A stretch of DNA of 55,766 nucleotides from Ruficoccus amylovorans (GTDB taxonomy: Bacteria > Verrucomicrobiota > Verrucomicrobiia > Opitutales > Cerasicoccaceae), in NCBI RefSeq assembly GCF_014230085.1, contig NZ_JACHVB010000004.1:1-55766 (forward strand), given 5' to 3'. The notes beneath the pieces were generated by a model that did no database searches, was not told where the DNA came from, and worked only from the letters and a program-made list of their open reading frames with translations. Within the stretch, counting starts at the first letter, position 1. The number at the start of each line of letters is the position of its first letter. Below are positions 16,061-53,373 of the stretch, piece after piece. The position numbers and the translations under genes are program-made.

Positions 16061-16067
16061 GAGCGTT

Positions 16068-16136
16068 TCAAATAAAACTGTATCCGCAATGGGTAAACCA
16101 GCCCCGGACATCGTTGTGAATGAAGGAGTGGGCCTT
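16068..16136 (-). pseudogene. C-terminal fragment of the IS630 transposase
   Basis: Read on the minus strand, this piece encodes K-A-H-S-F-I-H-N-D-V-R-G-W-F-T-H-C-G-Y followed by three residues and a TGA. The G-W-F-x-H-C-G-Y ending is the classic C-terminus of IS630 transposases. It continues exactly in frame from the fragment whose last shared codons lie at 54804-54818 (N-C-K-A), so the two were one gene before the prophage inserted. Confidence 0.88.
16130..16136 (+). repeat. Prophage target-site duplication, left copy (GGGCCTT)
   Basis: The 7-bp GGGCCTT is present here and at 54804-54810, at both junctions between the split IS630 and the phage. Mu-type phages duplicate 5 bp on insertion; the additional 2 bp of identity make the exact edge ambiguous. 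The ends given for the prophage assume the whole 7 bp belongs to the target. Confidence 0.75.
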
Positions 16137-16253
16137 GGGTACCGTGCGCCAAGCCGAATTATCCCGCGATAGCCCGAGTACCAATGACTTACGAGTACCG
16201 CGCCCGAATCGACCCGATTGGGAACTCCACGCGCCAGACGCGGCATATTGCGA

Positions 16254-33195: not shown

Positions 33196-34823
33196 ATAAC
33201 CCAGACACAGCTTTGACGCCTTCGGCACCCGGCCCGCTCGCGGCCCCGACCGAGTTCCTGCCGCCGCTGCATCGCGCCAGCCATGCCCGCCAGCGCGACT
33301 ACACGAACCCGCTGCGCGGGCTCGACCTGCCGCGTGCCGTGCGCCTGATGGAGGAGGCCGAGCGTGGCCGCAGCGCCGACCTGATGTGGCTGTACCGCAT
33401 GGTGGAGAAGCGCGACTCCACCGTGAAGGGGCTCAAGCTGCGCCGCCTCACCGCCCTGGGCAAGCTGGACTGGGATATTAAAATCCCCGACCGCCTCCCT
33501 CCCGGCATGACCGCCGAGCAGGCCGAGCAGCAGGCCGACAGCCTGCGGGCCATGTACGACGAGATAGAAAACCTTCCGCAGGCGATCGAGCACCTGGCGC
33601 TGGCCACCTTCCGGGGATACGCGCACTTGGAGAAACACTACTACGCCAACAATCCGGCGCTGCCCGTCATCTGGCTGGAGCCGGTCGAGCAGTGGTTTTG
33701 CGTGCGCCACCCGCAGTCCTGGGAATGGGTCTATGACTCCACCGGCCGGGGCAGTACTTCCACCGGGAGGATCATCGACCCGCGTCACTGGGTGGTTAGG
33801 GAAGTGGACGACCCGGTCAACGAGATCGCGCTGATCGCCCATATCCGCAAGAATCTCGCGCAGAAGGACTGGGACGCCTTTCTGGAGGACTTCGGCATAC
33901 CGTCCATCTTCGGCATCCTCTCCCAGAACACCCCGCCCGACCAGGTGCGCGAGTGGCTCGACATCATCAACCAGGTTACCGGCAACAGCCGGGGCGCCCT
34001 GCCGCCCGGCTCGGACATCAAGTCCGTCGCGCTCGGCTCCCAGGGAGACGTGCCCTTCAAGGCGCACAAGGACGAACAGCGCGAGGAGGTGGTCCTGGCC
34101 GGAACCGGCGGGCTGCTCTCCATGCTGACCGCGCCCACCGGCCTCAACTCCGAGCAGGCCAAAGTCCACGAGGCGGCCTTCGACGCCATCGCGATCGCGG
34201 AGGCCGGTGTCATCTCCAGCCTCCTTCAGCAGCAGCTTGATAAGCCGCACCTGCACCGCGAGTTCCCCGGCCAGAAACAGGCGGCGTACTTCTCGCTCGC
34301 CGCCGCCGAGGAGGAGTCGATCGACGCCCTCGGGGATCTCCTGGTCAAACTGGCCAGCGCCGGGTTGGAGGCGGAGGAGAATCAGATCTCCGAAAAGACC
34401 GGGCTCAAGCTCCGCCGCCGCGTGGCCGCGCCCGCCATGCCCGGTTATCCCGGCACCGGGGGCGGGATGTTCGCCAACCGCGCCCCGGCTGCCGCGCTCG
34501 ATCAGGTGCGCGAAGAGCGTTTCCTCGCCTCGGCGGCCGATGAACTGGCCAGGGCGGACCGGCAGGCGCTCGCCCCGCTCATCGCCCGGGTCGAGCAGGT
34601 GCTCCAGATCGAGGACGAGGCCGCCTTTACCGCCGCGCTCGAGCAGCTCCGCTCCGACCTGCCGGAACTGGAAAAACAGTGCCTCGGAGACGAGGCGTCC
34701 CGCCCCCTGGAAACCGCCTTTGAGAACATCCTCGCCACGGCCTTCGCTAACGGTGTTTCCGGGCGCGGAGACCTCACCCCCGAAAAATTGCCCACAGGCG
34801 CGCAGGAGGGCGCGGGGGCATGA
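33192..34823 (+). CDS. Portal protein, Mu gp29-like (DUF935)
   Basis: This 543-aa protein closely follows the DUF935 pattern: NPLRGLDLPRAVRLMEEAE near the start, then LMWLYRMVEKRDSTVKGLKL, a central W-x-x-x-D region (QKDWDAFLEDFGIPSIFG), and a helical C-terminal half with an acidic end. The portal forms the dodecameric vertex for DNA passage and terminase docking. It starts inside the terminase stop (ATGA). In Mu a gp30 MuF-type gene follows immediately; here it is displaced to about 38.2 kb, if present at all. Confidence 0.92.
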   Translation: MNNPDTALTPSAPGPLAAPTEFLPPLHRASHARQRDYTNPLRGLDLPRAVRLMEEAERGRSADLMWLYRMVEKRDSTVKGLKLRRLTALGKLDWDIKIPDRLPPGMTAEQAEQQADSLRAMYDEIENLPQAIEHLALATFRGYAHLEKHYYANNPALPVIWLEPVEQWFCVRHPQSWEWVYDSTGRGSTSTGRIIDPRHWVVREVDDPVNEIALIAHIRKNLAQKDWDAFLEDFGIPSIFGILSQNTPPDQVREWLDIINQVTGNSRGALPPGSDIKSVALGSQGDVPFKAHKDEQREEVVLAGTGGLLSMLTAPTGLNSEQAKVHEAAFDAIAIAEAGVISSLLQQQLDKPHLHREFPGQKQAAYFSLAAAEEESIDALGDLLVKLASAGLEAEENQISEKTGLKLRRRVAAPAMPGYPGTGGGMFANRAPAAALDQVREERFLASAADELARADRQALAPLIARVEQVLQIEDEAAFTAALEQLRSDLPELEKQCLGDEASRPLETAFENILATAFANGVSGRGDLTPEKLPTGAQEGAGA

Positions 34824-34901
34824 GGGGGCGCGTTCGCCCGGAAAACGCCTCCTGTGCCGTCTGCACTGCCTTTGCAATGATTTCTGAAACGCATCTTAAC
34901 C

Positions 34902-36008
34902 ATGAACTCCGTTACCATTCCTTTTCTTAACCGCGCGGGGGATTTCGACCCCGACGACTGGTTCCATCTCGTCCCCTGCGGGGAGTTTCCCATCTCCCGC
35001 CGGGAAAACGGCGTGCGCGTGCGCTATCAGCAGGTGGTGGACGCCGCCGCCCTGGACGCCATCGTGGCCGACTTCAACCGCAAGCGCTCGGAGAATCCCG
35101 ACTACCGGCTGCTGATCGACTTCGACCATTTCTCGCACAGCTCCGACAAACCCTCCGACGCCGCCTGCTGGGTCACGGACATGGAGAGCCGCCCCAACGG
35201 GGTCTGGGCCAGGGGCGAGTGGTCCGACACCGGCGAGGCCGCCATCAAAAACAAGCGCTACCGCTTCATTTCCCCGGTCTGGTTCCCGCACCAGACACAG
35301 GCCCTCGGGGGCAACCGCTTCCGCCCGGTCACCGTCAACGACGCCGGGCTCACGAATACGCCCAACCTGGGCGACGCCCTCGTGCCCTTCTGGAACCGGG
35401 CCACCGACGATCTTCCCGCAGCCGCCGACGCCGCTGCCAACATCAACACCGATACCACCATGAATGAAAGTCTCCAGACTCAGTTGATCGGCCTGCTCGC
35501 CCTCGCGGCGGATGCGACCGAAGAACAGATTGTGGCCGCCGTCAAGGCGCTGCAGTCCAGTAACGCGACGGCCGCCGAGCAGGTTGCCGAGGCCGCCGAG
35601 GTCGCCGCCGAGAACGAAGAGTTCAAAAACCGGCTGACCGCGCTCGAAACCCAGAACAAGCGCCTGCTGGCCAAGCGGGTGGATGAGGAGCTGGACCGCC
35701 ACGCCGACATCATCCCCGAGGCCGACAAGACCGCCTGGAAGAACCGCCTGGAGGCCGACTTCGACGGCACCTCCGCGCTGCTCACCGGGATCAAGCGGCC
35801 CGAAGGCTACCAGCCGATGCACCAGCGCGGAAGCGCCTCCGCTTCCGCCGCCCGCCACCAGAACGCCGATCAGCCCTTCATGAACCGCGTGAGCGAGTTG
35901 AAGCAGGCCGACTCGCAGCTCACACACAACGAGGCCATCCTGCGCGCCGCCCGCGAGCATCCCGAGGAGTACAACGAGTACGTCGCCGGGCTGACCACCC
36001 GCGCCTGA
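34902..36008 (+). CDS. Mu I-type capsid protease with scaffold region
   Basis: This 368-aa protein combines an N-terminal prohead protease of the Mu I family (GDFDPDDWFHLVPCGEFPI, then RLLIDFDHFSHSSDKPSDA, with Asp/His residues in the active-site region; ISPVWFPHQTQ) with a C-terminal helical scaffold part rich in Glu and Ala (QVAEAAEVAAENEEFKNRL). In Mu the scaffold Z is made from an internal in-frame start in I; an ATG at 35461 (MNESLQTQL) is in the equivalent place here, but no clear Shine-Dalgarno precedes it. It is preceded by a 78-bp gap without a gene. Confidence 0.88.
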   Translation: MNSVTIPFLNRAGDFDPDDWFHLVPCGEFPISRRENGVRVRYQQVVDAAALDAIVADFNRKRSENPDYRLLIDFDHFSHSSDKPSDAACWVTDMESRPNGVWARGEWSDTGEAAIKNKRYRFISPVWFPHQTQALGGNRFRPVTVNDAGLTNTPNLGDALVPFWNRATDDLPAAADAAANINTDTTMNESLQTQLIGLLALAADATEEQIVAAVKALQSSNATAAEQVAEAAEVAAENEEFKNRLTALETQNKRLLAKRVDEELDRHADIIPEADKTAWKNRLEADFDGTSALLTGIKRPEGYQPMHQRGSASASAARHQNADQPFMNRVSELKQADSQLTHNEAILRAAREHPEEYNEYVAGLTTRA

Positions 36009-36011
36009 GCC

Positions 36012-36049
36012 CTCTTCAACTCTCAAACCCGCAACGCTCAAACATCGTT
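36012..36049 (+). repeat. Octamer-repeat leader before the DUF2190 gene
   Basis: CTCTTCAA, CTCTCAAA, CCCGCAA and CGCTCAAA occur back-to-back and are followed by CATCGTT and the ATG at 36050. No Shine-Dalgarno sequence is present. The same CTYTCAAA unit recurs before the genes at 37522 and 39694. Confidence 0.7.
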
Positions 36050-36451
36050 ATGAAGACCACTTACCAGCTCGGCCCCGTCATCACCCTGACGGCGGCCAAT
36101 ATCGCTTCCCTTGAGGGGAAGGAAAACCACCTGGTGTCCGTCGATGCCACCGGCAAGGCCGCGCTGCTCTCCGGCAGCGCCCTGGCCATCGGTGTCTTCG
36201 ACAGCCGCCTGGCTCCCGATTCCGATGAGATCGCCGTGCGCCTGCTCTCGGGCGGGGGCACCCTCGTCGTGCGCCAGTCGGCCGCGATCGCACCCGGTGC
36301 CCGTGTGGCCGGGGTCGCCGCCAGCGCCACGGTCACCACGGCCGCAGCCGGTACCCGCTCGCTCGGGGTCAAGGTTTCGCCCGCCACCAACGGTGCGGCC
36401 GGAGACCTGATCGAGATCATCCCGCTGGTCGAGACCATTCCGGGGGCGTAG
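36050..36451 (+). CDS. DUF2190-family capsid decoration/stabilisation protein
   Basis: This 133-aa beta-rich protein has the DUF2190 pattern: a short N-terminal segment, VSVDATGKAALLSG, ALAIGVFDSRL, VRLLSGGGTLVVRQSAAI, and a repeated alanine/glycine-rich turn near the end. Proteins of this family sit between the protease/scaffold and major capsid genes in many phages and are thought to bind or stabilise the capsid. The position agrees exactly. Confidence 0.82.
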   Translation: MKTTYQLGPVITLTAANIASLEGKENHLVSVDATGKAALLSGSALAIGVFDSRLAPDSDEIAVRLLSGGGTLVVRQSAAIAPGARVAGVAASATVTTAAAGTRSLGVKVSPATNGAAGDLIEIIPLVETIPGA

Positions 36452-36496
36452 CCGCGCCCCCGTTTCCACCCGTCAACCTTCCTTCTATTATAGAAC

Positions 36497-37435
36497 ATGA
36501 AATCCAACGCAGTCTTTAACCCGGTGTTGAGCGCCCTGTTCAACGCCTACTTCATCAACCCCGGCGATTATGTCGGGCTCGACATCGCGCCGATCTTCCG
36601 CACCGGCGAGCAGTCCGCCAACTATCCGGTCTTCGGACGGGAGAACTTCGTCAACATGCCGACGCTCAAGCCGCGCGCGCCCGGTACCCCGTACCCGCGC
36701 TCCGTGCCCTCGCTCTCGGATGACAAGTACTCGACCAAGAACTACGGCCACGAAACGCCCGTCCCCGACGAGAACCGCAAGAAGTACGCCAAGCAGATCG
36801 ACGCCGACAACGCCGCCGTGAAGCGCAACGCGCAGACCATTCTCGTCAACCACGAGTTGCGGGTGCGCGCCCTGGTCAAGAGCGCCGCCGTCACCCACCG
36901 CGCCACCCCGGCTGCCAAGTGGGACGACTACGCCAACTCCGACCCGATCGCCGACGTCAAGGCCGCCCGGCGCGTGATCGATGTGGAGGGCGGTATCGCC
37001 CCGAACCTCCTCACGCTCACGCCCACCGTGGTGGACAAGCTCGCCCTGCACCCGAAGATCCGCGCCCTGTACCCGACCCACAACGGCCCGATCACCACGG
37101 AGATGCTCCGGGTCGCCTTCGAGATCGAGCGCGTGCGCATCGCCGCCGCCAAGGTCAACACGGCGGCGGACGGGCAGGCCCTCTCCATCGGCTATCTCTG
37201 GGGCGACGACATCATCCTCTCGGTCTCCGAAAACTCCCAGGACCTGGAGTCGCCCAACGCGGCCCGCACCTTCCTGTGGACCGAGGAGAGCGGCGGCGAT
37301 GACGCGGGCTCCCGCATCGAGACCTACCGCGAGGACAACATCAAGTCCGACGTCCACCGCTCCGAGCACCACACCGATGAGAAGCTCACCGGCCCGGACT
37401 TCATCTACCTGCTCGAGTCCGTCCTCACCGCCTAA
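36497..37435 (+). CDS. Major capsid protein (Mu-like/HK97 fold)
   Basis: This 312-aa protein lies directly after the protease/scaffold and decoration genes. It has features of HK97-fold capsid proteins: an N-terminal arm (NAYFINPGDYVGLDIAPIF), a basic and charged extended loop region (KKYAKQIDADNAAVKRNA), and a C-terminal core with NLLTLTPTVVDKLALHPKI and LSIGYLWGDDIILSV. It forms the shell of the head. A 45-bp leader precedes it without the octamer repeats. Confidence 0.9.
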   Translation: MKSNAVFNPVLSALFNAYFINPGDYVGLDIAPIFRTGEQSANYPVFGRENFVNMPTLKPRAPGTPYPRSVPSLSDDKYSTKNYGHETPVPDENRKKYAKQIDADNAAVKRNAQTILVNHELRVRALVKSAAVTHRATPAAKWDDYANSDPIADVKAARRVIDVEGGIAPNLLTLTPTVVDKLALHPKIRALYPTHNGPITTEMLRVAFEIERVRIAAAKVNTAADGQALSIGYLWGDDIILSVSENSQDLESPNAARTFLWTEESGGDDAGSRIETYREDNIKSDVHRSEHHTDEKLTGPDFIYLLESVLTA

Positions 37436-37486
37436 CCGTTGGCCGCTCGCCCTGCCGCCGCTTCCCGGCGGCGGGCGACGGCACAA

Positions 37487-37521
37487 CTTTCAAACTCTCA
37501 AACCTTCAAACTCTCTTCCTT
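37487..37521 (+). repeat. Octamer-repeat leader before the 53-aa gene
   Basis: CTTTCAAA, CTCTCAAA, CCTTCAAA and CTCTCTTC are tandem with exact 8-nt spacing, then CTT and ATG at 37522. The A+T-rich stretch stands out from the surrounding coding DNA, and no Shine-Dalgarno motif is present. Confidence 0.75.
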
Positions 37522-37683
37522 ATGAAAGTAAAAGTTCTCGCCCGTCACGGCCTTGCCTATTCCGGCACGGTCTATCCGAAAAACTCGGAGTTCGAGCTGC
37601 CCGCCGGGCCGGTCCTCGACGCCGCCCTGCGCTTCAAGCAGGCCGAGGAGGTGAAAGCCTCGAAGGAACCCGCCAAGAAGTAG
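37522..37683 (+). CDS. Small head-region protein (53 aa)
   Basis: This 53-aa protein (MKVKVLARHGLAY... ending in EEVKASKEPAKK) has a small beta region and a Lys-rich C-terminus. Similar short genes follow the major capsid gene in many phages. It ends 6 nt before the next start. No specific function is assigned. Confidence 0.75.
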   Translation: MKVKVLARHGLAYSGTVYPKNSEFELPAGPVLDAALRFKQAEEVKASKEPAKK

Positions 37684-37689
37684 CCCGCC

Positions 37690-38160
37690 ATGCCCGCCTG
37701 GACCGTCATCGAACTCGCTCACCTGGACACCGCCAAGGCCGCCGCCCTGGTGGACGCCCTGCGCACGGCCGCGCTCGGTGACGGCCAGGAAGACCCCCTG
37801 CCCGGTATCATCACGGACAGCGTTTCGCGCATCCGTCAGGAAATCGCGGCCGGGGGTCGGGTGCGGCTCTCGGCCACGCCCGGCTCCGTCCCGCCCTCGC
37901 TCAAGCGGCTGGCCCTGCGCATGATCCTGCGCGAGGGGCAGAGCCGTCTCAACGCGATGGGCGCCATGCCGCTCTCCGACGACGAGCGCAAGGAATGGGA
38001 CAAGGATGACCGCTATCTCGAACGCATCGCCAAAGGGGAGATCACCCCCGAGGAGCCCGACAATCCCGAACCCGCCCCCACCGTCCAGGCCACCGTCTTT
38101 CCCCCCATGATCGCCGCCGACTCCCGCCGCTTCGGCCGCGCCTCCCAGGACGGCATTTGA
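37690..38160 (+). CDS. Head-tail connector-type protein (gp36/DUF1320-like position)
   Basis: This 156-aa protein has the order seen in gp36-type connectors: SVSRIRQEIAAGGRV, then VPPSLKRLALRMILREGQSRL (a helix with conserved Arg/Leu spacing), an acidic region (DDERKEWDKDDRYLERIAKG) and a flexible Pro-rich C-terminus. It lies after the capsid genes and before the morphogenesis genes, where a connector is expected. The assignment is mostly positional. Confidence 0.6.
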   Translation: MPAWTVIELAHLDTAKAAALVDALRTAALGDGQEDPLPGIITDSVSRIRQEIAAGGRVRLSATPGSVPPSLKRLALRMILREGQSRLNAMGAMPLSDDERKEWDKDDRYLERIAKGEITPEEPDNPEPAPTVQATVFPPMIAADSRRFGRASQDGI

Positions 38161-38198
38161 TCCGCGCACGGCGCGGATTCAATGATTCCCCATTTATA

Positions 38199-38219
38199 AA
38201 TTCCGAATTCCGAATCCCT
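38199..38219 (+). repeat. Heptamer repeat AATTCCG in an A+T-rich leader
   Basis: AATTCCG occurs twice in tandem with a degenerate third copy (AATCCCT), inside a stretch that begins ATTTATA. The 24-nt sequence 38192-38215 is repeated exactly at 40196-40219. It lies 13-40 bp before the ATG at 38233. Confidence 0.8.
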
Positions 38220-38232
38220 GCCAATCTTTCCC

Positions 38233-39066
38233 ATGATCCAGTTCACCCGCCCTCAGCCCTTTGCCGAAGCGCTCGCCGCTTCGCGGGGTCGTGCGTTGCT
38301 GCCGACCTCCGGCGGCACGGCGGACCTGCAGCGACTGGACCCCGGCCTGCGCGCACGCGCCCGTTTCGCGGCCCGCGTGCGCAGTGCCGAGCACCTCTCC
38401 GTCCTGGACAAGGGCGTGGACGATGTGCTGACGGGGAAGATCGACCCGGCGACGGCCCGGCTGCGCCTGAAACAGTTCCTCGCCCGCACCGGCTACCAGC
38501 CCAAACCCGGCACCGAGGGCGGCCTGAAGGACTTTTCCTCGCGCAAGCGTATCGACCTGCAACTACGCATCAACGTGCGCCAGGCGCAGGGTTACGGCTG
38601 GGACGAGCAGGGCCAGGACCCGGCCTTGCTCGACGCTTTCCCCGCCCAGGAGTTTGTCCGCGTGGAGGCCCGCCGCAACCCCCGTACGGACTGGCCCGAT
38701 CGCTGGAACGCCGCCCGCGCCCAGGTGGGCGCCGCCGGGACGACGGATGCGGGCACCGGCCGCATGGCCGCCCTCAAGAACCATCCGATCTGGCCCGCGC
38801 TGTCCATCTTCGGCCATCCCTGGGAGCCGTTCGACTGGGGCTCGGGCATGGGGCTGGAGGACGTGCCGCGCCGGGAGGCGATGGCGCTCGGCCTGATCGA
38901 CCGCGACACGCGGATTCAGCCCCGGCGCTCCGACTTCAACGCCGGGCTCCAGGCTTCCCCCGATGTCGCCAGCGCCCGCCTGCGCGAGGAGCTGGAAAAG
39001 AGCGGGGTGGGCCGCTTCGGCCCCGATGGCGTCTTTCACTTTAACCCGGAGGCGTCCGATGCTTGA
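38233..39066 (+). CDS. Minor head / head morphogenesis protein (MuF-like candidate)
   Basis: This is a 277-aa protein. A helical N-terminal part with an Arg-rich segment (LRARARFAARVRSAEHLSVLDK) is followed by KIDPATARLRLKQFLARTGYQP, RIDLQLRINVRQAQGYG, W-P-D-R-W, and a region ending HPWEPFDWGSGMGLEDVPRREA. These features recall the C-terminal domain of MuF/SPP1 gp7-type head morphogenesis proteins, although the typical Cys/His residues are missing. The Mu equivalent (gp30) sits right after the portal; here it is after the capsid and connector genes. It overlaps the next gene (ATGCTTGA). Confidence 0.6.
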   Translation: MIQFTRPQPFAEALAASRGRALLPTSGGTADLQRLDPGLRARARFAARVRSAEHLSVLDKGVDDVLTGKIDPATARLRLKQFLARTGYQPKPGTEGGLKDFSSRKRIDLQLRINVRQAQGYGWDEQGQDPALLDAFPAQEFVRVEARRNPRTDWPDRWNAARAQVGAAGTTDAGTGRMAALKNHPIWPALSIFGHPWEPFDWGSGMGLEDVPRREAMALGLIDRDTRIQPRRSDFNAGLQASPDVASARLREELEKSGVGRFGPDGVFHFNPEASDA

Positions 39067-39646
39067 GGTCACCATCCCCTCGATCGACACCTGGCCGCCG
39101 CTGCTGAGGATCACGCGCGGGGTGACGGAGCCCTCCGTCAAGCGCGTCATGGGCCGCGCCATCGCCAACCTCATCCGCCGCCACCTGCGTAAGCTCGACC
39201 GCGAGCGACCCAACCAGCTCGGCGGCCAGCGCACCCACTTTTACGCCAACGCCGCCGCCGCCGTCCAGAACCCCCGCCTGCACGGTTCCACCGGCGTGGC
39301 CGTGGGCATCAACCACGTCGGAATCGCCCAGCGTTTCCACGGCGGCGTGATCGTCCCGAAATTCGCGGACTGGCTGAGCATCCCGGCCCGCACCGAAGCC
39401 TACGGCACCCGTGCCCGCGAGCACGCCAACCTGGCCTTTATCCTCATCCGCGCCCGCACGACGGCCAAGGGCGACCCGCTCGCCATGCTCCAGGAGCCGG
39501 GCGGCGGCGTCCTGTTCTGGCTGGTCAAGCGCGTGGTCCAGCAGCCCGACCCGTCCGTCCTTCCGACCGAAGACGGCCTCCTGGGCGCTGCCCTGGAGGC
39601 CGGGGAGGAATACGTCGGACTCCTCCTCGAGCGCGCCGCCCTCTGA
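39059..39646 (+). CDS. Virion morphogenesis/tail-completion-like protein
   Basis: This 195-aa protein from ATG 39059 has the features of small neck or tail-completion proteins: MGRAIANLIRRHLRKLDRERPN, a beta strand G-V-A-V-G-I-N-H-V-G, RFHGGVIVPKFADWLSIPA and a conserved TAKGDPLAMLQEPGGG loop. It follows the head protein by an 8-nt overlap. The order and pattern suggest Mu gpG/gp37-type function; exact family uncertain. Confidence 0.65.
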   Translation: MLEVTIPSIDTWPPLLRITRGVTEPSVKRVMGRAIANLIRRHLRKLDRERPNQLGGQRTHFYANAAAAVQNPRLHGSTGVAVGINHVGIAQRFHGGVIVPKFADWLSIPARTEAYGTRAREHANLAFILIRARTTAKGDPLAMLQEPGGGVLFWLVKRVVQQPDPSVLPTEDGLLGAALEAGEEYVGLLLERAAL

Positions 39647-39649
39647 CCC

Positions 39650-39693
39650 CTCTCAAACTTTCAAACCCGAAACTTTCAAACTCTCAAACGTTC
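39650..39693 (+). repeat. Octamer-repeat leader before the gene at 39694
   Basis: CTCTCAAA, CTTTCAAA, CCCGAAA, CTTTCAAA and CTCTCAAA follow each other, then CGTTC and ATG at 39694. This is the longest of the octamer leaders. There is no Shine-Dalgarno motif. Confidence 0.8.
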
Positions 39694-40194
39694 ATGAGCG
39701 ATCCCGTTTACGAAGCCTTTCTCACCGTGCAGGACACGGTCGCCGGTCATATCCAGGCGATCGACTACCTGCACGGGCACGAGGTCATTACCGAGCGCAA
39801 GGGCGACATGCCCGGCCGCATTGCCACGGCCCTCTCCAAACTCGGCCTGTCTATCGTGGTGGTCACCCCCTCGGCCAAGCTCCTGCGCGTGGCCCACAAC
39901 CGCCAGGTCTGGGAGCTGAAGCTCGTGGTGGACGTGGCCGAGTCCGCGCTGATCAACCGCTCCAAGCACACCGGCAAGCCCGCGCTGGCCGCCGCCACCG
40001 CCATCGCCGTGGGCATCTCCGGCCAACCCAACGGGCTCCCGGCCAGCCAGGCCCAGCGCGGCGAGAACGTGACCCTCACGCTCGACCCCGAGATGCCCCT
40101 CATGCTGGTGCCCGATCCGCGCCAGGTCATCTACCACGTCACGGCCGCCACCCACGTCTTTATCACCGTTCCGCCCCCCTCACGCTCTGCGTGA
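39694..40194 (+). CDS. Tail terminator / connector-like phage protein
   Basis: This 166-aa protein is alpha/beta (YLHGHEVITERKGDMPGRIA, LSIVVVTPSAKLLRV, WELKLVVDVAESALI), with a hydrophobic C-terminal region (MLVPDPRQVIYHVTAATHVFITV). It sits between the tail-completion-like gene and the tail tube gene, where tail-terminator proteins are normally encoded. The family is not recognised with certainty. Confidence 0.6.
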   Translation: MSDPVYEAFLTVQDTVAGHIQAIDYLHGHEVITERKGDMPGRIATALSKLGLSIVVVTPSAKLLRVAHNRQVWELKLVVDVAESALINRSKHTGKPALAAATAIAVGISGQPNGLPASQAQRGENVTLTLDPEMPLMLVPDPRQVIYHVTAATHVFITVPPPSRSA

Positions 40195-40202
40195 AATTTA
40201 TA

Positions 40203-40230
40203 AATTCCGAATTCCGAATGCTGAATTCCT
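40203..40230 (+). repeat. Heptamer repeats AATTCCG in the leader of the tail tube gene
   Basis: AATTCCG, AATTCCG, AATGCTG and AATTCCT stand in tandem with 7-nt spacing. The upstream 24 nt (40196-40219) are identical to 38192-38215. The stretch is 67 bp before the ATG at 40297. The interval 40195-40296 contains no gene. Confidence 0.8.
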
Positions 40231-40296
40231 GCACATTCCCCCGCTTTACCGTCCCGGCCTGACACCGGGCAGATCAACAACCAAACCAGATAAATC

Positions 40297-41007
40297 ATGC
40301 CATTACCAACCGCTCCCTTCGACGCCGCCAAGAGCATCTTTGCCGGGCTCAGCGTCATCCAGCTCGCCTTCGCGGCCACGCCGATCACCGGGGTTGCCGC
40401 CACCACGGCCGGGGTCTTCACCAAGACCGGCCACACCCTCACCGACGGCACGCCGCTGCGTTTCGACTCCGGCACCGGCGGCGAGGGCCTGACCGTCGGC
40501 ACCACTTACTACGTGCGCGATGCCGCCGCGAATACCTTCAAGCTCGCGCCCACGCCCGGCGGGGTTGCCATCACGCTGACCAGCGCCCTCAGCGCGGCCA
40601 CCTTCAGCGCGGCCGCCGTCTTCGAGGCCACCAAGGTCGATAGCAAGCTCTCCGAGGAAAAGAAGCACATCGAGCGTCCGGACAAAAAGGGCGTCCTGCG
40701 CAAGCAGCGCACCGTCACGACCCGCTCCGATGAAAGCTTCGTCTTTGATGTCCAGGAGGTAAAACGCCTGCTCGACATCTTCGGCGGCTCGCTCACCGGC
40801 AGCGCCCGTGTCTCCGTCACCCTGTGGATTCCCGACCCCGATGACGCCACCGGCAAGGTCGCCCTCAAGTCCGAGGACAACTTCCCGGCCACGATCTCCC
40901 GCGAGGGTGACCTCTCCTTCGGTGGCGGCGAGTTCTCCCAGTCGAACATCCTCATCGAGTCCAACAAGCCCGGCGCCATCACCTGGACCGCCGACGCCGC
41001 CGTCTAA
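40297..41007 (+). CDS. Major tail tube protein (siphophage type)
   Basis: This 236-aa beta-rich protein precedes the tail assembly chaperones and tape measure, the expected place for the tube gene. Residues 30-105 form an inserted-looking module (TKTGHTLTDGTPLRFDSG, GLTVGTTYYVRDAAANTF) of the kind added to tail tube or fibre proteins for surface decoration. The remaining parts (KLSEEKKHIERPDKKGVLRK, FVFDVQEVKRLLDIFGG) resemble tube proteins of non-contractile tails. No sheath gene is present next to it. Confidence 0.72.
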   Translation: MPLPTAPFDAAKSIFAGLSVIQLAFAATPITGVAATTAGVFTKTGHTLTDGTPLRFDSGTGGEGLTVGTTYYVRDAAANTFKLAPTPGGVAITLTSALSAATFSAAAVFEATKVDSKLSEEKKHIERPDKKGVLRKQRTVTTRSDESFVFDVQEVKRLLDIFGGSLTGSARVSVTLWIPDPDDATGKVALKSEDNFPATISREGDLSFGGGEFSQSNILIESNKPGAITWTADAAV

Positions 41008-41031
41008 CCGCGCCCGGCAGCGGCTTCACTG

Positions 41032-41063
41032 ATTCATAAATTCATCCATTCATAAGTTCGATC
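41032..41063 (+). repeat. Octamer-repeat leader before the tail chaperone gene
   Basis: ATTCATAA, ATTCATCC, ATTCATAA and GTTCGATC are spaced exactly 8 nt and end at the ATG at 41064. The sequence family differs from CTYTCAAA, but the period and placement are the same. No Shine-Dalgarno motif is present. Confidence 0.75.
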
Positions 41064-41501
41064 ATGACTATCAAGCAAAAGATTCAAACCGTGGAACTGG
41101 CGGACGGCCGCCGTATCGAGGTGCGCCGCCTCAAGTGGAAGGCCACCCGCGCCTTTCTCGCCCAGCTCGGGGGCGTCCTCTCCGGCCTCTTCAAAGGTAT
41201 CGGGGCGGACGTCACCGCCCTGGAGGTGACCGTGGCTGAGATGGCCGACCGCCTGCCTGAACTGATCGCCGGCAGTGACGAGCTGATCGTCAGCCTGGTC
41301 ACCGGCGCCACCGCCCTCAAGGCCGAGGAGTTCGGCGAGTTGGACGCCCTGGAGGCCAGCGAGATTCTCGCCGCCGCCATCGCCGTCAACCTCGACGCCG
41401 AGCTAAAAAACTGCTGGGCCGCAATCGGAAACACGATCGCCGGACTGATTCCGGCCCAAAGTCTCCCCACCGCCGTCAAGGGCAAGACCCCGACGTCGTG
41501 A
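41064..41501 (+). CDS. Tail assembly chaperone (first protein)
   Basis: This 145-aa helical protein lies between the tail tube and tape measure, the position of the gpG-like chaperone of siphophages. It starts TIKQKIQTVELADGRRIEV and has KATRAFLAQLGGVLSGLF and a Leu/Ala-rich helical body. It is followed by a second short reading frame overlapping by one nucleotide (TGATG), the counterpart of the downstream (T/H-type) chaperone. Confidence 0.75.
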   Translation: MTIKQKIQTVELADGRRIEVRRLKWKATRAFLAQLGGVLSGLFKGIGADVTALEVTVAEMADRLPELIAGSDELIVSLVTGATALKAEEFGELDALEASEILAAAIAVNLDAELKNCWAAIGNTIAGLIPAQSLPTAVKGKTPTS

Positions 41502-41641
41502 TGGCCCGGCTCTACGTGTGGCTGGTCGATGCCGGTTTTTCCGCCGAGTACCTCGACCGCTGCACCTTGCTCGATCTCGACCTCCTCGCCGCCCAGGTCA
41601 ACGAGCTCAGAAAGTCCGACCGGGGCCGTCCGCGCCTTTAG
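41501..41641 (+). CDS. Tail assembly chaperone, second small protein
   Basis: This 46-aa protein begins at the ATG overlapping the previous stop (TGATG). It reads MARLYVWLVDAGFSAEYLDR and ends KSDRGRPRL. In siphophages a second chaperone is usually made from this place, often by frameshift; here a restart at the overlap is more likely. The size and position support the call, while the sequence family is not recognised. Confidence 0.65.
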   Translation: MARLYVWLVDAGFSAEYLDRCTLLDLDLLAAQVNELRKSDRGRPRL

Positions 41642-41823
41642 GCGTGGCGGCCCTGAGCGGCCCGCCAAAGGGCGCGCACCACATCACAGAGCACTCCAAA
41701 CGCCACCAATGCCAACCCGCTCCCGGCCAGCCACAGCAGGCTGGAGGGCAGGCTCAGGATCAACGCCACCGCCAGTACCAGCAGGGGCACGATCAGGGGC
41801 AGCATTAGCAGTCCGGCAAACAT
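41638..41823 (-). CDS. Small two-helix hydrophobic protein on the opposite strand
   Basis: This 61-aa frame encodes two very hydrophobic segments (MFAGLLMLPLIVPLLVLAVALIL and SLLWLAGSGLALVAFGVLCDVV) with a short basic C-terminus. It occupies the only long gap of the tail operon (41642-41823), abuts the tape-measure start head-to-head and overlaps the chaperone stop by 4 nt. It would be a membrane protein, holin-sized, but lacks a clear Shine-Dalgarno and runs against the operon. Treat it as tentative. Confidence 0.4.
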   Translation of the reverse strand: MFAGLLMLPLIVPLLVLAVALILSLPSSLLWLAGSGLALVAFGVLCDVVRALWRAAQGRHA

Positions 41824-44772
41824 ATGAATAACTTACTTCAGGTCATCCTCGACTTCAAGGCCAATTTGAACGGCCTCGACCGCTTCGTGTCCGCCTACAA
41901 GGCGCGCATGGAACAGGTCGAAGCGTTCAATGCCCGTATCCAGAACGGCGAGGCCGCCCTGCGCGGGATGCTCACGAAGCTCGGCAGTGTCCTGGGCGCC
42001 GCCGCCCTCTACCGCTACACCCAGGAGGCCCGCGCTGCCGAAGAGGCCCAGAACGAACTGACGCAGGCCCTGCGGCGAACGGGGCAGGTGCAGTACCGCG
42101 ACCAGTTGCTCGCCCAGGCGGATGCCCTGGAGGAGGTGACGAAGTTCAGCGCCGAACAGGTCCAGGCCGTGCAGCGCATCACCCTCGGCTTCGGCCTGTC
42201 CGCTCAGCAGGCTCAGGCCGCCGCCGAACCCATCCTCGACTGGGCACAGCAGCACCGCCAGGCCGGGGAGGCCGCCGCCCAGTTCTTTGGCGAGCAGCTC
42301 GCCTCCGGCCGCGAGGAACTCGCCCGCTACGGGATCGAGCTGGACCAGAGCAAGGATCGCGTCACCGCCATGATTGAGGCGTTCCAGAAAACCTCTGGAG
42401 GGGCCGCCCGCGCCGCCATCGTCAACAAGGAGGAACACCAACTGCTCGTCCAGTATGGCCGCGAGACGGAGAAGCTAGGAAACATCGCCCGCGCTGTCGC
42501 TTTGCCGTTTATCCAGGTGCTGGTCCCCGCCTTGGGGCAGACGGCACAAATCCTCGGGCAGTTGGCCGGGGTCGTCCAACCTTTCGTCCCTGTCCTCGCG
42601 GCCGTCACCCCGACTGTGCTGAAACTGGCCTTGGCCTGGGGCGCACTCTCCGGCTCGATGACTTTGGTCAAGATGGCCGTCAACCCGCTGCGGACAGCCT
42701 TTGTGCTGCTCACCGGCACGACGATCGCCCAGTACGGGCGGGCGCTCACGGCCACCATTGCCAAGCATGGCCTCATCAAAGGGAGTCTCGCCTCAATTAC
42801 CTCGGCCAGCGGACTGGCGGCGACGGCCCTGCGTCTGGTCGCTGTGGCCGGGCTCGGCTTTGTCGCCTTCATGGTTGGCTGGCTCATCGGCTCCATGATT
42901 AACGAGCTGGAGGTCGGCGGCGCCCGGATCAAGGACTGGGTGGCGAAGATCATGGCTGATATTGCGGCGTGGTGGGCTCACTTCGACGCGAACGTCGAGA
43001 AGGGGTGGAACTGGATAAAGCTCACCTTCTCCAATTCACTGACGGCGCTGAAGGTCGTCGTGTTGGAGTTTCTCGTCTGGGTTGCCGACAAATTCGACAA
43101 TGCGCTCGGGCGCAAAATCGGCTTCACGATCGACCCGACCGGCCTGAAGGACTCGCTTGACCAGGCGAAAAAACAATTGGCCGACTCTGCGGGCAAACTC
43201 ATCGCCGACAACGCGGCTGTCGATCTCCGGGCCAAGGCCAAGGCTGGTTGGTGGCTGGATGTCGGACAGGACATCCTGGACGAGGGCAAGCAGGCGGTCC
43301 GTAACAATCAGGCGCAAGGGGCGGGGAATGCCCAGGACCTGACCAATTTATCCAACTTCGACCAAGATGCGCTGGAGGCCCAGGTTAAGAAGGCCGAAGC
43401 CGACCGCAAAGCGGCGGAGGAAGCGCAGCTCGAGCGCAAGCGGAAGATCTACGCGGAGGAAACCAAGGCTCAGCGGCTTGAGGCCGATGGCGACCAGGAG
43501 GCGGCGGACGCGATTCGCCGCCGTCTGCGGGAGATGGAGGCCGAGGCGGACCTCGGGGCCGACGCCCGCGACCTGATCCGGGAGCGGCTCGATCTGGAGG
43601 ATCGTCTGACACAGGAGAAGCGCGCCCAGCAGGCCGTGGCCGATTCCCAGGCGATCCTGGAAAAGCAGCTCAACCGCCTGCAGTCCGAGCGGCAACTGGC
43701 CGAACAGCGGCGCGACCGCACGACGGCCGTCCGCATCCTGGAGCAGGAACAGGTCTTGATCGGGCAGATCATCGCGGGCTACCAGGCGGCGGCGGCAGCG
43801 GCAGCCTCTCCGCTGGAACAGGCCGAGGCGCTCGCGCAGATCGCCCAGTGGCAGCAGTTCCTCGAAGACCTGAAAACCGGCGCGGGCGCGTCCAGGTTGT
43901 CCCAGGCCCAGCAGAACTACCAGGCGCTGGATGACCCGATCCAGCACTTCCAGTCCCTCTCGGACGGCAGCCAGGGTGGCATCCTCGAGTATCTCGCGCA
44001 GGTGGGCACGACCGCCGATCAGGTGGCCGAGGGCATCAAGAGCACGCTCGGCTCCGCCGTCTCCAGCATCACGGACGGCATCAGCAGTTGGATCAACGGC
44101 ACGCTCAGCTTCGGCGCGGCCGCCGCGCAGATCGGCCAGTCCATCCTCAACACCATGCTGCGCACGGTCGTTGAAATGGGTGTGCAGTGGCTCGTCAACA
44201 AGGCGCTCGTGCTCACCGGCATGACTGCGATCGAGACCGCCGCCGACGCCCACCGGGTGGCCCGCGTGGCCAAGGAAAACGCCGCCGAGGCGGCCACGCT
44301 TCCGGCCAAGAGCGCCGGGGCCGTCGCCGCCGGGATCAGCTCCTTCGGGATCGCGCTCGCCTTCGGGGCGGTCGCTCTGGCCGCGATCATGGCCGCCTTC
44401 GGGGCCTTCGAGACCGGGGGCGTCGTGCGCGGGGGCGAGCAGCTCATCCGCGTGAACGAAAAGGGGACCGAGGCCGTGCTCAACAACCGCGCCTATCGCA
44501 CCTTCGGAGAAACCTTTATCGCGGGGCTGAACACCGGCCAGCTCCTGCTCGATGCGCTCCCCGGGGATGTCGCCCACTCGCTGACGCGTCCGGCCGATCC
44601 GGCCGGGACGGGGGCGGCGATGGGCGGCAGCGGCGGCGGTGCCTCCGGGGCGCAGGCCGTCAATGTGGCGATCCTCGACAAGTCCTCCAACGCCCGCGCC
44701 TGGCTGGAATCATCCGAGGGGTCGCGCTTCCTGTACGACAAAGTCAAAGGCGTCATGAAGGACGTGAGCTGA
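41824..44772 (+). CDS. Tail tape measure protein
   Basis: This 982-aa protein has the typical design: a helical N-terminal region (ALRGMLTKLGSVLGAAALY, then EEAQNELTQALRRTGQVQY), central hydrophobic segments (TVLKLALAWGALSG; LRLVAVAGLGFVAFMVGWLIG around residues 337-357), a long coiled coil (about 520-680, QRLEADGDQEAADAIRRRL), and a C-terminal hydrophobic stretch (FGIALAFGAVALAAIMAAF) followed by a glycine-rich tail. It sets tail length; about 980 residues correspond to roughly 150 nm. It begins head-to-head with the small minus-strand frame at 41823. Confidence 0.9.
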   Translation: MNNLLQVILDFKANLNGLDRFVSAYKARMEQVEAFNARIQNGEAALRGMLTKLGSVLGAAALYRYTQEARAAEEAQNELTQALRRTGQVQYRDQLLAQADALEEVTKFSAEQVQAVQRITLGFGLSAQQAQAAAEPILDWAQQHRQAGEAAAQFFGEQLASGREELARYGIELDQSKDRVTAMIEAFQKTSGGAARAAIVNKEEHQLLVQYGRETEKLGNIARAVALPFIQVLVPALGQTAQILGQLAGVVQPFVPVLAAVTPTVLKLALAWGALSGSMTLVKMAVNPLRTAFVLLTGTTIAQYGRALTATIAKHGLIKGSLASITSASGLAATALRLVAVAGLGFVAFMVGWLIGSMINELEVGGARIKDWVAKIMADIAAWWAHFDANVEKGWNWIKLTFSNSLTALKVVVLEFLVWVADKFDNALGRKIGFTIDPTGLKDSLDQAKKQLADSAGKLIADNAAVDLRAKAKAGWWLDVGQDILDEGKQAVRNNQAQGAGNAQDLTNLSNFDQDALEAQVKKAEADRKAAEEAQLERKRKIYAEETKAQRLEADGDQEAADAIRRRLREMEAEADLGADARDLIRERLDLEDRLTQEKRAQQAVADSQAILEKQLNRLQSERQLAEQRRDRTTAVRILEQEQVLIGQIIAGYQAAAAAAASPLEQAEALAQIAQWQQFLEDLKTGAGASRLSQAQQNYQALDDPIQHFQSLSDGSQGGILEYLAQVGTTADQVAEGIKSTLGSAVSSITDGISSWINGTLSFGAAAAQIGQSILNTMLRTVVEMGVQWLVNKALVLTGMTAIETAADAHRVARVAKENAAEAATLPAKSAGAVAAGISSFGIALAFGAVALAAIMAAFGAFETGGVVRGGEQLIRVNEKGTEAVLNNRAYRTFGETFIAGLNTGQLLLDALPGDVAHSLTRPADPAGTGAAMGGSGGGASGAQAVNVAILDKSSNARAWLESSEGSRFLYDKVKGVMKDVS

Positions 44773-44806
44773 GTCCGTCTTTACGCATCTTCACCCAACA
44801 CGCTCC

Positions 44807-50598: not shown

Positions 50599-53373
50599 AT
50601 GCAAACCGTCACACCCTCCCTTCACCGCCTGCGGCTGGACAAGAGCCGCCCGTACCAGACTCGCCCCATCCTGTACCTCTGGCGCGGGAGCACCCTGCGC
50701 GTGCAGCTCGGCCTCGCCGACGGCGCGGCCCTGCTCTCCGTGGCCAACCTCGCCTCGCTCACCTACGAGATTAAGCCCTACCAGGGCAAGAACCCGCCCA
50801 CGGAAAACACGCCCCCGGTCTACGCACGCACGGTGGACGTGTTTGACGATACCCTGACCGGCGACACCTGGGCCTCGGGCGCCCAGCAGCACGTCGCCTT
50901 CGACCTGGACAAGGCCGACACACAGTTCCCCGCGAACACGTACCGGCTCATCATTTCCGCGCTCACGATCGACAACCCCAGCCAACTGGTCACCTTCCTC
51001 GTGACCGACATGCAGGTGCGTGAAGACGGCGGCGGGCTCGCCTCCGTTATTGAGCAGACCCCCGGCGTAAACTACTACACGGCCGACCAGGCCGATGCGG
51101 CTATTCAGAACGCCGGGCAGGCCCTGCGCGATGAAGCGGCCGAGCTGCTCGCGCAGACACAGGAGGCCGCCGAAGGTATCTCCACTGCGGTGGACGCCGC
51201 CGACCGGGCCGAGGGTGCCGCCACCCGCGCCGAAACCGCTGAAGCCGAGGTCGAAGACAAGCGGCAGGAAGTGGCTACCAACACGGCCGCCGTCGCGGCC
51301 GACAAGACCGATGTCGCCGGGATGGCCGCTCAGGTGGAGACCAAGCGGCAGGAGGTCGAGGCCAACGCCGTCACCGTTGCCGGGGACAAGACCACCGTGG
51401 CCGGGATGCTTACCGAGGTCGAAGACAAGCGCCAGGAGGTGGCTACCAACACGGCCGCCGTCGCGACCGACAAAACCGATGTCACCGGGATCGCCACCGA
51501 GGTGGAGACCAAGCGTCAGGAGGTCGCAGCCAACGCCGTCACCGTTGCCGGGGACAAGACCACCGTGGCCGGGATGCTCACCGAGGTCGAAGACAAGCGC
51601 CAGGAGGTGGCCACCAACACGGCCGCCGTCGCGGCCGACAAGACCGATGTCGCCGGGATGGTCACTCAGGTGGAGACCGATCGCGTCGCCGTGGAGAGCG
51701 TCCGGGCGGACTTTAACACCCGTTACCTGGGCGCGTACGCTGCCGCCCCCACCACCGATAACTCGGGTAATCCGCTGCAGGAGGGCGTCGAGTACTACGA
51801 CACCTCGCTGGCCAAGAAACGCACCTGGGCCGCCGGCACCTGGCGCGATGCCTTCGACGGTGTGAGCGACGCCCGCGCCGCCGAGATTGCGGCGCGGCCG
51901 TTTGGGTCGGCGCTGCACCTGGACGGCGTGAGCGCCGCAGTAGCTCTGCCCGCAGGACTTGCTGACACTTTTCGGGGAAATTCCACCGTGATGTGGCGGG
52001 TCTTTTTCCCCGGCCGCCCGAGCGCGGGCAGCCGCATCTTTGGCAGCCGCGAGGACGGGTTATCAGCCTACCACTGGTCGCTCCAGTCCTCCGGTCAGAT
52101 CACGATATCCCTCGGTGACGGTGTCAATGGCGCGATCATATCCACACCCACAGGCTATATCCCGGTCGAACCTTCGGGCTGGATGTGGCTCTCGGTGACA
52201 GTGGATATTTCCAGCAACCTGATGAGCCTGTACCGGGACGCCACCCTGCTCGGCACCGCCGACATATCCGGTGTCGATCTGGCGAACACCCCGTGGCTCG
52301 CCCCGGCCATCGGCGCGATGAATAATGGCGGCACGATTGGCTACTTCCTGCGCATGTACGTCTCGGAAGGATGCGTTTACAATGTCGCACTTACGGCGGC
52401 AGAAATCGCCGCCATCACGGCACCACAGCCAACCCTGCCGAGAGTGCCCCCAGTGTATCGGTGGGGTAACCCTCTGCCCCGGTACGTATCGGATTTTTCG
52501 ACAGAAACGTTTTACGACTACACCCCGACCTACGGTGAATATTCCGTGGAGAATGGCGTGTCTGACGGAACCGTTGCCCATGATAATGTCCTCAAGATTA
52601 CTAAGTATTCGTCAGCGCCAGCTTCTGCCGTCCGCCTGCGTCTAAACTCCCTGTCTTTTGCCCCAAACACCAGCACGAAACAATGGAGGGTCGAATTCGA
52701 CTTCTACGTCCCGGCCTCACAGACTTCCACGCAGCAAAGCAGAATTCAGTTCTACCAAGATGGGATCGGTACGTCAATAGGAGGTACCTACTATTACACA
52801 CACCCGTCACCGGGGAATTGGGTACATGTAGTGTTGGAGGGGCCGTATATCAGCCTAGCCTCGGGTGCGGGTACGAATACCTTAGCAGTGGGCTTCGGGC
52901 AGTATAGCGAAGGCGTGGAACTGGAATTCGCCGTGGCTAATTTTCGGGTGTGGGAGATCGGGGCCATCGGCTCCTGGAGCGCTTCCCAGGCCGGTCGCCT
53001 TGGCCCGCAACTGCGGGACCGCAGCCCGCACCGTTACGACGGCCTGCTCGCTGCCAGCGGCTGCACCTGGACCGCGCTGACCGGGCGGGACGCGATCCGC
53101 GCGCGCGCGGTCGATGCCTCGTCCAGCATGTACCTCTTGCGGGCCGGGGACATCCTGCCCGCCGCCTGCGTCGTCACCGCGCTCGTGGTGGACGGCGCTC
53201 CCGTTGCCCTGAGCGGGGCGCAAAACGCCGCCCTGCGCCGCATCCGGCTCGCCCCCAGCGGGGCCGACCTGCTCGTGCAGCGCTCGGACGGCACCACCCA
53301 CGCAACCCTTGCCACCGTCACCCCGGCCAGCCTGGCCGACGTGGACCTCCTCCTGAACATCCAACTCGATTAA
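50599..53373 (+). CDS. Tail fibre with heptad repeats and C-terminal concanavalin-like domain
   Basis: This is a 924-aa protein. The N-terminal about 140 residues attach to the tail tip. Residues 218-357 are five tandem 28-residue units (E-D/T-K-R-Q-E-V ... D-K-T-x-V-A-G-M) forming a trimeric coiled coil, flanked by further heptads. Residues about 430-620 are a concanavalin/LamG-type domain (VMWRVFFPGRPSAGSRIFG, SLYRDATLLGTADISG), with a second beta module following (VRLRLNSLSFAPN, WVHVVLEGPYISL). The end is a small beta domain. It would recognise the host surface glycan or protein. Confidence 0.85.
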   Translation: MQTVTPSLHRLRLDKSRPYQTRPILYLWRGSTLRVQLGLADGAALLSVANLASLTYEIKPYQGKNPPTENTPPVYARTVDVFDDTLTGDTWASGAQQHVAFDLDKADTQFPANTYRLIISALTIDNPSQLVTFLVTDMQVREDGGGLASVIEQTPGVNYYTADQADAAIQNAGQALRDEAAELLAQTQEAAEGISTAVDAADRAEGAATRAETAEAEVEDKRQEVATNTAAVAADKTDVAGMAAQVETKRQEVEANAVTVAGDKTTVAGMLTEVEDKRQEVATNTAAVATDKTDVTGIATEVETKRQEVAANAVTVAGDKTTVAGMLTEVEDKRQEVATNTAAVAADKTDVAGMVTQVETDRVAVESVRADFNTRYLGAYAAAPTTDNSGNPLQEGVEYYDTSLAKKRTWAAGTWRDAFDGVSDARAAEIAARPFGSALHLDGVSAAVALPAGLADTFRGNSTVMWRVFFPGRPSAGSRIFGSREDGLSAYHWSLQSSGQITISLGDGVNGAIISTPTGYIPVEPSGWMWLSVTVDISSNLMSLYRDATLLGTADISGVDLANTPWLAPAIGAMNNGGTIGYFLRMYVSEGCVYNVALTAAEIAAITAPQPTLPRVPPVYRWGNPLPRYVSDFSTETFYDYTPTYGEYSVENGVSDGTVAHDNVLKITKYSSAPASAVRLRLNSLSFAPNTSTKQWRVEFDFYVPASQTSTQQSRIQFYQDGIGTSIGGTYYYTHPSPGNWVHVVLEGPYISLASGAGTNTLAVGFGQYSEGVELEFAVANFRVWEIGAIGSWSASQAGRLGPQLRDRSPHRYDGLLAASGCTWTALTGRDAIRARAVDASSSMYLLRAGDILPAACVVTALVVDGAPVALSGAQNAALRRIRLAPSGADLLVQRSDGTTHATLATVTPASLADVDLLLNIQLD
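51250..51669 (+). repeat. Five tandem 84-bp coding repeats (168-bp higher-order unit)
   Basis: Five units of 84 bp encode V-E-D/T-K-R-Q-E-V-x-x-N... of 28 residues (four heptads). Odd and even units differ, giving a 168-bp double repeat. Nucleotide identity between alternate units is very high, so the array can expand or contract by recombination. Confidence 0.9.

Follow-up and report, generated by a model that had tools for sequence, protein, structure and literature searches.

The late genes of a phage in Ruficoccus amylovorans raise the question of why tandem octamers of the type CTYTCAAA stand in the gaps between them, close to start codons that lack Shine-Dalgarno (SD) motifs. The operon lies in the window analysed here, a stretch of 55,766 nucleotides (contig NZ_JACHVB010000004.1, positions 1 to 55,766). 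An earlier note had offered several readings of these arrays, among them a translation-initiation device for genes without SD motifs and a mobile or expanding microrepeat that targets the gaps between genes. Our data favor the latter: the CTYTCAAA arrays of the late operon are probably single arms of a dispersed intergenic inverted-repeat family, the arms of which are tandem octamers pointing outward. The genome-wide spread of the arrays, their outward inverted pairing, and their presence or absence among congeners all argue for a microrepeat that moves or expands in gaps.

Outward pairs of octamer arrays in the host and its relatives

In samples of the R. amylovorans genome and of the congeneric genome G002, CTYTCAAA neighbours on opposite strands and at most 150 nt apart formed 25 outward pairs and not a single inward one; the same samples held three same-strand neighbours and 37 singles. 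Adding further loci raised the count to 29 outward and 0 inward pairs (the pair and gap-type sets contain a 2.5-kb stretch of contig C64 twice, with one edge array in both copies). The layout is (TTTGARAG)n, a spacer of 24-110 nt (25 pairs) and (CTYTCAAA)n. The outward arms bracket the spacer, so that one arm follows a stop and its partner precedes a start. Spacer-versus-spacer BLAST among the 25 pairs found two related pairs only, one of them orthologous.

Among related arrays sharing a gap, all unit families taken together, 28 are inverted (8 of them non-CTYTCAAA) and 1 is direct. A common polarity accompanies this arrangement, with the G-rich arm toward the left gap edge and the C-rich arm toward the right: 58 CTYTCAAA arms agree and 4 disagree, and in the other families 49 agree and 19 disagree, the arms of one pair not being independent. 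Thus, the start-side arm reads C-rich and the stop-side arm G-rich; near starts the strand reading is C>G for 21 arrays and G>C for 4, and near stops it is C>G for 5 and G>C for 12. Moreover, the predicted folds of all 29 pairs are more stable than those of their dinucleotide shuffles, 30 per pair (z < -2, median -6.3), with the arms of each pair base-pairing together. At G000:C12:206684-206987, in the own genome, a TTAAATGG hairpin lies within the spacer of a CTYTCAAA pair; in the orthologous gap of G002, the outer pair is present and the hairpin absent.

The arrays are spread widely through the host. The own genome matches a double CTYTCAAA unit at 96 places on many contigs when up to one mismatch is allowed, and 30 of these matches are exact (overlapping places within one array are counted separately). 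A backward-pattern control gave 84 places against 96 for the double unit, and 10 against 27 in the own genome for the 19-nt word; it is uninformative because a reversed tandem octamer is almost the same periodic word. In 400 gaps of 15-600 nt, drawn from 640 kb of contigs C12 and C35, 46 period-8 segments were seen versus 1.6 by shuffle, together with 7 versus 1.0 of period 7 and 11 versus 1.2 of period 9 (five shuffles per period). Lag-8 self-matching is elevated in gaps and not in coding sequence. The two contigs were tiled irrespective of their inner matches but picked as rich in double-unit matches, and match positions guided the choice of the other stretches of the own genome and of most of those from G002; array densities are therefore not genome averages. 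Further unit families are TTAAATGG, CACRGAGG and CGCAAAGA in the own genome, and CACGGAT and ATTCNNAA-like words in G002. Period-7/8 arrays are thus neither phage-specific nor start-specific.

Ten orthologous gaps carry pairs in both the own genome and G002. Their arms have a median identity of 0.78, against 0.67 for non-orthologous arms, and their spacers one of 0.47, against 0.46 for shuffled spacers; two of the ten spacers are still alike (0.77 and 0.78) and eight are scrambled. The exact 19-nt double unit has no match in G001 and G003, two genomes of the same genus, and no CTYTCAAA pair occurs in the five orthologous G001 and G003 gaps compared with array-bearing own gaps. One orthologous G001 gap (G1_L232) holds a CCTTTGTGCCTTTGCGTCTTTG array (score 9.6, 19 nt off the gene edge), and most other gaps compared in these two genomes show weak segments at most. 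One gap has a full pair in G002, measures 11 nt in the own genome and is short in G003; in G001 it contains an apparent degenerate right arm, as judged by eye.

In wider searches, the exact 19-nt word was found in 3 of 54 relatives and 5 of 387 genomes of the phylum, the own genome being included in both, and in at least 115 stretches of other genomes, most of which, among the matches listed, belong to Bacteroidota. These 115 loci gave, again among the matches listed, 13 outward and 0 inward pairs and 11 same-strand neighbours. Cerasicoccus frondis and Chryseobacterium are among the carriers on record. Three of the 13 outward pairs (L052, L061, L105) come from Verrucomicrobiota bacterium JB024, taken to be the same as G002, and seven from the single Bacteroidetes genome HyVt-532.

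Three observations from these genomes stand on their own. In HyVt-532, CTYTCAAA arrays surround a common palindromic core at L050, L055, L076, L088, L115, L137 and L143; this core has changes on both sides of its stem and may be a mobile element ending in arrays. In Paludibacter/Bacteroidales (L112, L113, L120), an octamer array directly precedes what appears by eye to be the same gene start. Finally, the 3.2-Mb genome of G133, from another family of the same phylum, contains the 19-nt double unit at 45 places, a number that matches the window's own genus.

Arrays in the phage late operon

PHROGs matches to terminase, portal, head protease, major head protein and head-tail adaptor bear out the description of these genes as late phage genes; four of the ten late-operon proteins scanned have no PHROGs match. 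Tandem octamers had been claimed upstream of four of the genes, and three of the arrays stand. On the plus strand, the array at 37485..37515 comprises three full units, CTTTCAAA, CTCTCAAA and CCTTCAAA (37487-37510), followed by CTCTC and the ATG at 37522, and the array at 39650..39689 (plus strand) has two units, a 7-nt degenerate unit and two further units ahead of the ATG at 39694; both are solo CTYTCAAA-type arrays that point to the start. The third array, at 41032..41055 on the same strand, is built of another unit, ATTCATNN, in the order ATTCATAA, ATTCATCC, ATTCATAA, and precedes the ATG at 41064; further near matches to it are present in the own genome. The fourth, claimed at 36012, proved weak. 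It is a degenerate plus-strand array of CTCTCAAAC and CGCTCAAAC (36020..36043) with two intact cores (36020 and 36035) spaced 15 nt apart, ends 6 nt before the ATG at 36050, and is left unreported by array scoring even at a lowered score of 7. All three CTYTCAAA arrays of the window are start-pointing, and their placement "right up to the ATG" holds loosely, as they stop about 5-11 nt short of it.

Two AATTCCG heptamer arrays on the plus strand had been overlooked, at 38199..38218 in the gap upstream of 38233 and at 40203..40226 in the gap upstream of 40297. Across the eight late-operon gaps of at least 15 nt (36008-44806, 483 nt), three period-8 and two period-7 segments score 9 or more, and 500 dinucleotide shuffles of the same gaps yield means of 0.006 and 0.01, respectively. 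This comparison with shuffled gap sequence, which the earlier note had proposed, puts the repeats well above chance. Rfam gave no match at gathering score for window positions 34000-42000 (the host pairs elsewhere were outside the search), and a known RNA family is rejected for this stretch.

Three related phage loci, with major head proteins 72, 61 and 37% identical to that of the window, have no CTYTCAAA array by the rule of this analysis. In one of them, L252, the homologue of 36050 is preceded at 6 nt, and that of 36497 at 2 nt, by a 7-nt array built of ATCCGCAA-like words (2 seen at score 9 versus 0.015 by shuffle). The gap of the first is that of the weak 36012 array, and the gap of the second is array-free in the window. 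A single CTCTCAR heptamer array is present in L251, in a different gap, and L253 has no scored array. Arrays in the same gap as in the window therefore amount to one case, in L252, the others lying in gaps that are array-free in the window. The window phage thus has a word common in its own host genome, and one related phage, L252, has a different word.

The window contains other repeats and long reading frames. Tandem repeats of 84/168 nt lie at 51245-51678, inside a reading frame of 924 aa in the phage tail region. The minus strand at 3365-16152 holds a pair of very long reading frames, of 2525 and 1736 aa, with tandem 36-nt repeats at 14675-14834 and a codon usage that the gene caller scored poorly.

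Starts, stops and competing explanations

The 55 gaps with CTYTCAAA arrays (one G003 gap included, the weak 36012 array left out) comprise 44 codirectional, 5 convergent and 6 divergent gaps; the 400 gaps of the tiled sample comprise 282, 59 and 59. The codirectional gaps hold 22 pairs, 13 arrays that are start-pointing only and 9 that are stop-pointing only (13 vs 9 solo arms, p 0.52), and the divergent gaps hold 3 pairs and 3 singles; pairs are present in convergent gaps as well. The 22 codirectional pairs lie at a median of 15 nt from the start and 23.5 nt from the stop (p 0.08). The tiled sample has 44 codirectional arrays with periods of 7-9, of which 25 lie closer to the start, 18 closer to the stop and 1 at equal distance from both; at most 25 nt from an edge there are 13 arrays at starts and 7 at stops. 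The suggestion that arrays are commoner before starts than elsewhere thus finds a lean in its favor, 25 to 18, that is not decisive, and start edges show no clear preference over stop edges.

The statement that SD motifs are missing at array starts is true (0 of 27 starts have an SD-like motif) but does not set these starts apart. SD-like motifs occur at 39 of 384 starts free of CTYTCAAA arrays, other families not considered, versus a shuffle mean of 36.5. Because they are at chance level genome-wide, array genes are not special in SD loss, and we reject it as a trait of their own. These counts use a custom gene caller with no ribosome-site model, and starts may be misplaced; at least one G002 start looked wrong. 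Some Verrucomicrobia are classed as SD-scarce in a 2024 study (PMC10783764).

These results bear on the possibility of a translational leader or regulator site, in which an unstructured G-poor array would aid ribosome binding or bind a repeat-recognising protein, as in the proposal made for TAACTGA repeats. The C-rich reading of start-near arrays (21 C>G, 4 G>C) would suit it, as would the start-facing orientation of all three CTYTCAAA arrays in the window, the lack of SD-like motifs at the 27 array starts, the solo arms in gaps of at most 60 nt (5 start-pointing, 1 stop-pointing, p 0.22), and the L252 phage, with its other 7-nt arrays 6 and 2 nt upstream of two starts. However, the same arrays, flipped, follow stops and occupy start-free convergent gaps, so that a leader device is not supported as a general explanation; the solo arms (13 vs 9), the chance-level SD motifs of the whole genome, and the array-free state of most homologous starts in related phages point the same way. 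A start-specific leader as a general explanation is rejected by the counts of stop-side arms, and we consider a leader or regulator site an unlikely account of the arrays; an arm may nevertheless serve as a leader locally. An RNA hairpin at gene borders, in which the long stem of the paired arms would stop, cut or stabilise intergenic mRNA, is consistent with the folding of all 29 pairs beyond their shuffles and with arm conservation in G002. Such z-scores, however, are expected of any inverted repeat, pairs are also found in divergent gaps, where no transcript needs to end, and solo arms cannot form the stem. A role for RNA at gene borders is possible, but we judge it distinctly improbable that it explains the family. 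Neutral slippage, that is, independent local expansion of low-complexity gap sequence, would fit the degenerate units and the excess of periods 7 and 9. It would not yield outward inverted pairs (25 to 0), put one octamer in dozens of unlinked gaps, or leave arms better conserved than spacers, and this already disfavored explanation seems very improbable.

We therefore favor a dispersed family of outward inverted repeats, to which the late-operon arrays would belong as single arms. Such elements may spread or be homogenised via the hairpin formed by their arms, either by single-strand hairpin mobility or by recombination between dispersed arms, and solo arms would derive from pairs. Arrays would abut start codons because the elements fill short gaps, and they may be tolerated there because the starts of this genome are not SD-dependent.

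Several observations weigh against this explanation. The window contains no paired CTYTCAAA arrays, and reading its arrays as solo arms therefore rests on the pattern in the host. The variable dinucleotides match between arms in 34 of 79 cases, against 0.34 expected by permutation (p 0.03), a slight excess. The residual gap around pairs has a median of 37.5 nt versus 104.5 nt in ordinary gaps (p 0.008); random insertion does not predict such tight gaps, whereas growth as far as the gene borders, or preferential occupation of operon gaps, would. We saw neither a clean-ended insertion nor a target duplication in the single filled gap compared across four genomes, whose flanks are much diverged. 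The own genome (97.8% complete) has no match to the Y1 transposase family PF01797, with three candidates scored. Finally, arm conservation could equally reflect selection for function.

A broader hypothesis, which we regard as doubtful, is that the elements belong to a general class of palindromes with array arms, present in certain SD-poor members of the Verrucomicrobiota and Bacteroidota, with an exchangeable word and a fixed architecture (a period of about 8 nt, arms inverted and outward, the C-rich strand toward the flanking gene). Members would be replaceable gene-border modules that spread also into phage operons by a mechanism not yet described. If the architecture is general, tandem arrays seen as low-complexity sequence or start leaders may be halves of one gap-bracketing element, which would explain why unrelated units have a common period and position. 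The function of start-proximal repeats would then be open to testing as well, with the stop-side arms, which carry the same sequence within that genome, as controls for the start-side ones.

Comparison with known repeat systems

The short tandemly repeated repetitive (STRR) sequences of cyanobacteria likewise consist of short intergenic tandem units; to our knowledge, outward inverted pairing is not among their features. The CTYTCAAA word strings were not found in the literature collection searched, and those of the other families gave only unrelated matches there, literature outside the collection not being covered.

TAACTGA heptamer repeats (PMC4679880) are nearest in kind. They too are short-period gap tandems, often at starts with few SD motifs, and are patchy over distant phyla, including Bacteroidetes, with lineage-specific positions. 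In Table 1 of that paper, 132 + 15 of 170 sets run toward a start, 12 toward a stop, and one is an inverted repeat. In the genome studied there, TAACTGA repeats are thus mostly start-directed and nearly never inverted, whereas the arrays described here form outward inverted pairs and use stop edges much like starts, with paired arms at both and 25 arrays nearer the start to 18 nearer the stop. Furthermore, the period here is 8 and several unit families share one layout, in contrast to a single heptamer; the units read here are other words, TAACTGA itself not having been searched for.

The likeness to REPINs, or doublets of repetitive extragenic palindromic (REP) sequences, lies in inverted conserved arms, a variable spacer, hairpin potential, extragenic location and singlets seen as remnants (PMC3116915). 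Inverted arms with a variable spacer and hairpin potential are all found here. REPIN arms, however, are single palindromic REPs, and the arms here are tandem octamers; CTYTCAAA, by reading, is not its own reverse complement, and the arms are direct tandems. A system of REPINs and REP-associated tyrosine transposases (RAYTs) is unsupported, because Y1 matches are absent from the own genome, G001 and G003, and the four found in G002 score 41.5 bits at most, and we reject a RAYT-driven REPIN.

GTAG/CGTC REP dimers are reported as abundant in the verrucomicrobium Opitutus terrae (PMC3733652), where their spacers, mostly 20-100 bp and often variable, and their position near coding regions recall the pairs described here. 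At the 116 arm ends of our 29 pairs, GTAG occurs once and CGTC five times (chance about 0.07 per end per tag), and this lack of tag enrichment rejects a GTAG/CGTC REP. A miniature inverted-repeat transposable element with a conserved interior is likewise rejected, the spacers of the 25 pairs being mostly unrelated; the seven HyVt-532 loci with their common palindromic core are an exception. Taken together, the element is best read as one that resembles REP dimers or REPINs and TAACTGA repeats while falling under the definition of neither.

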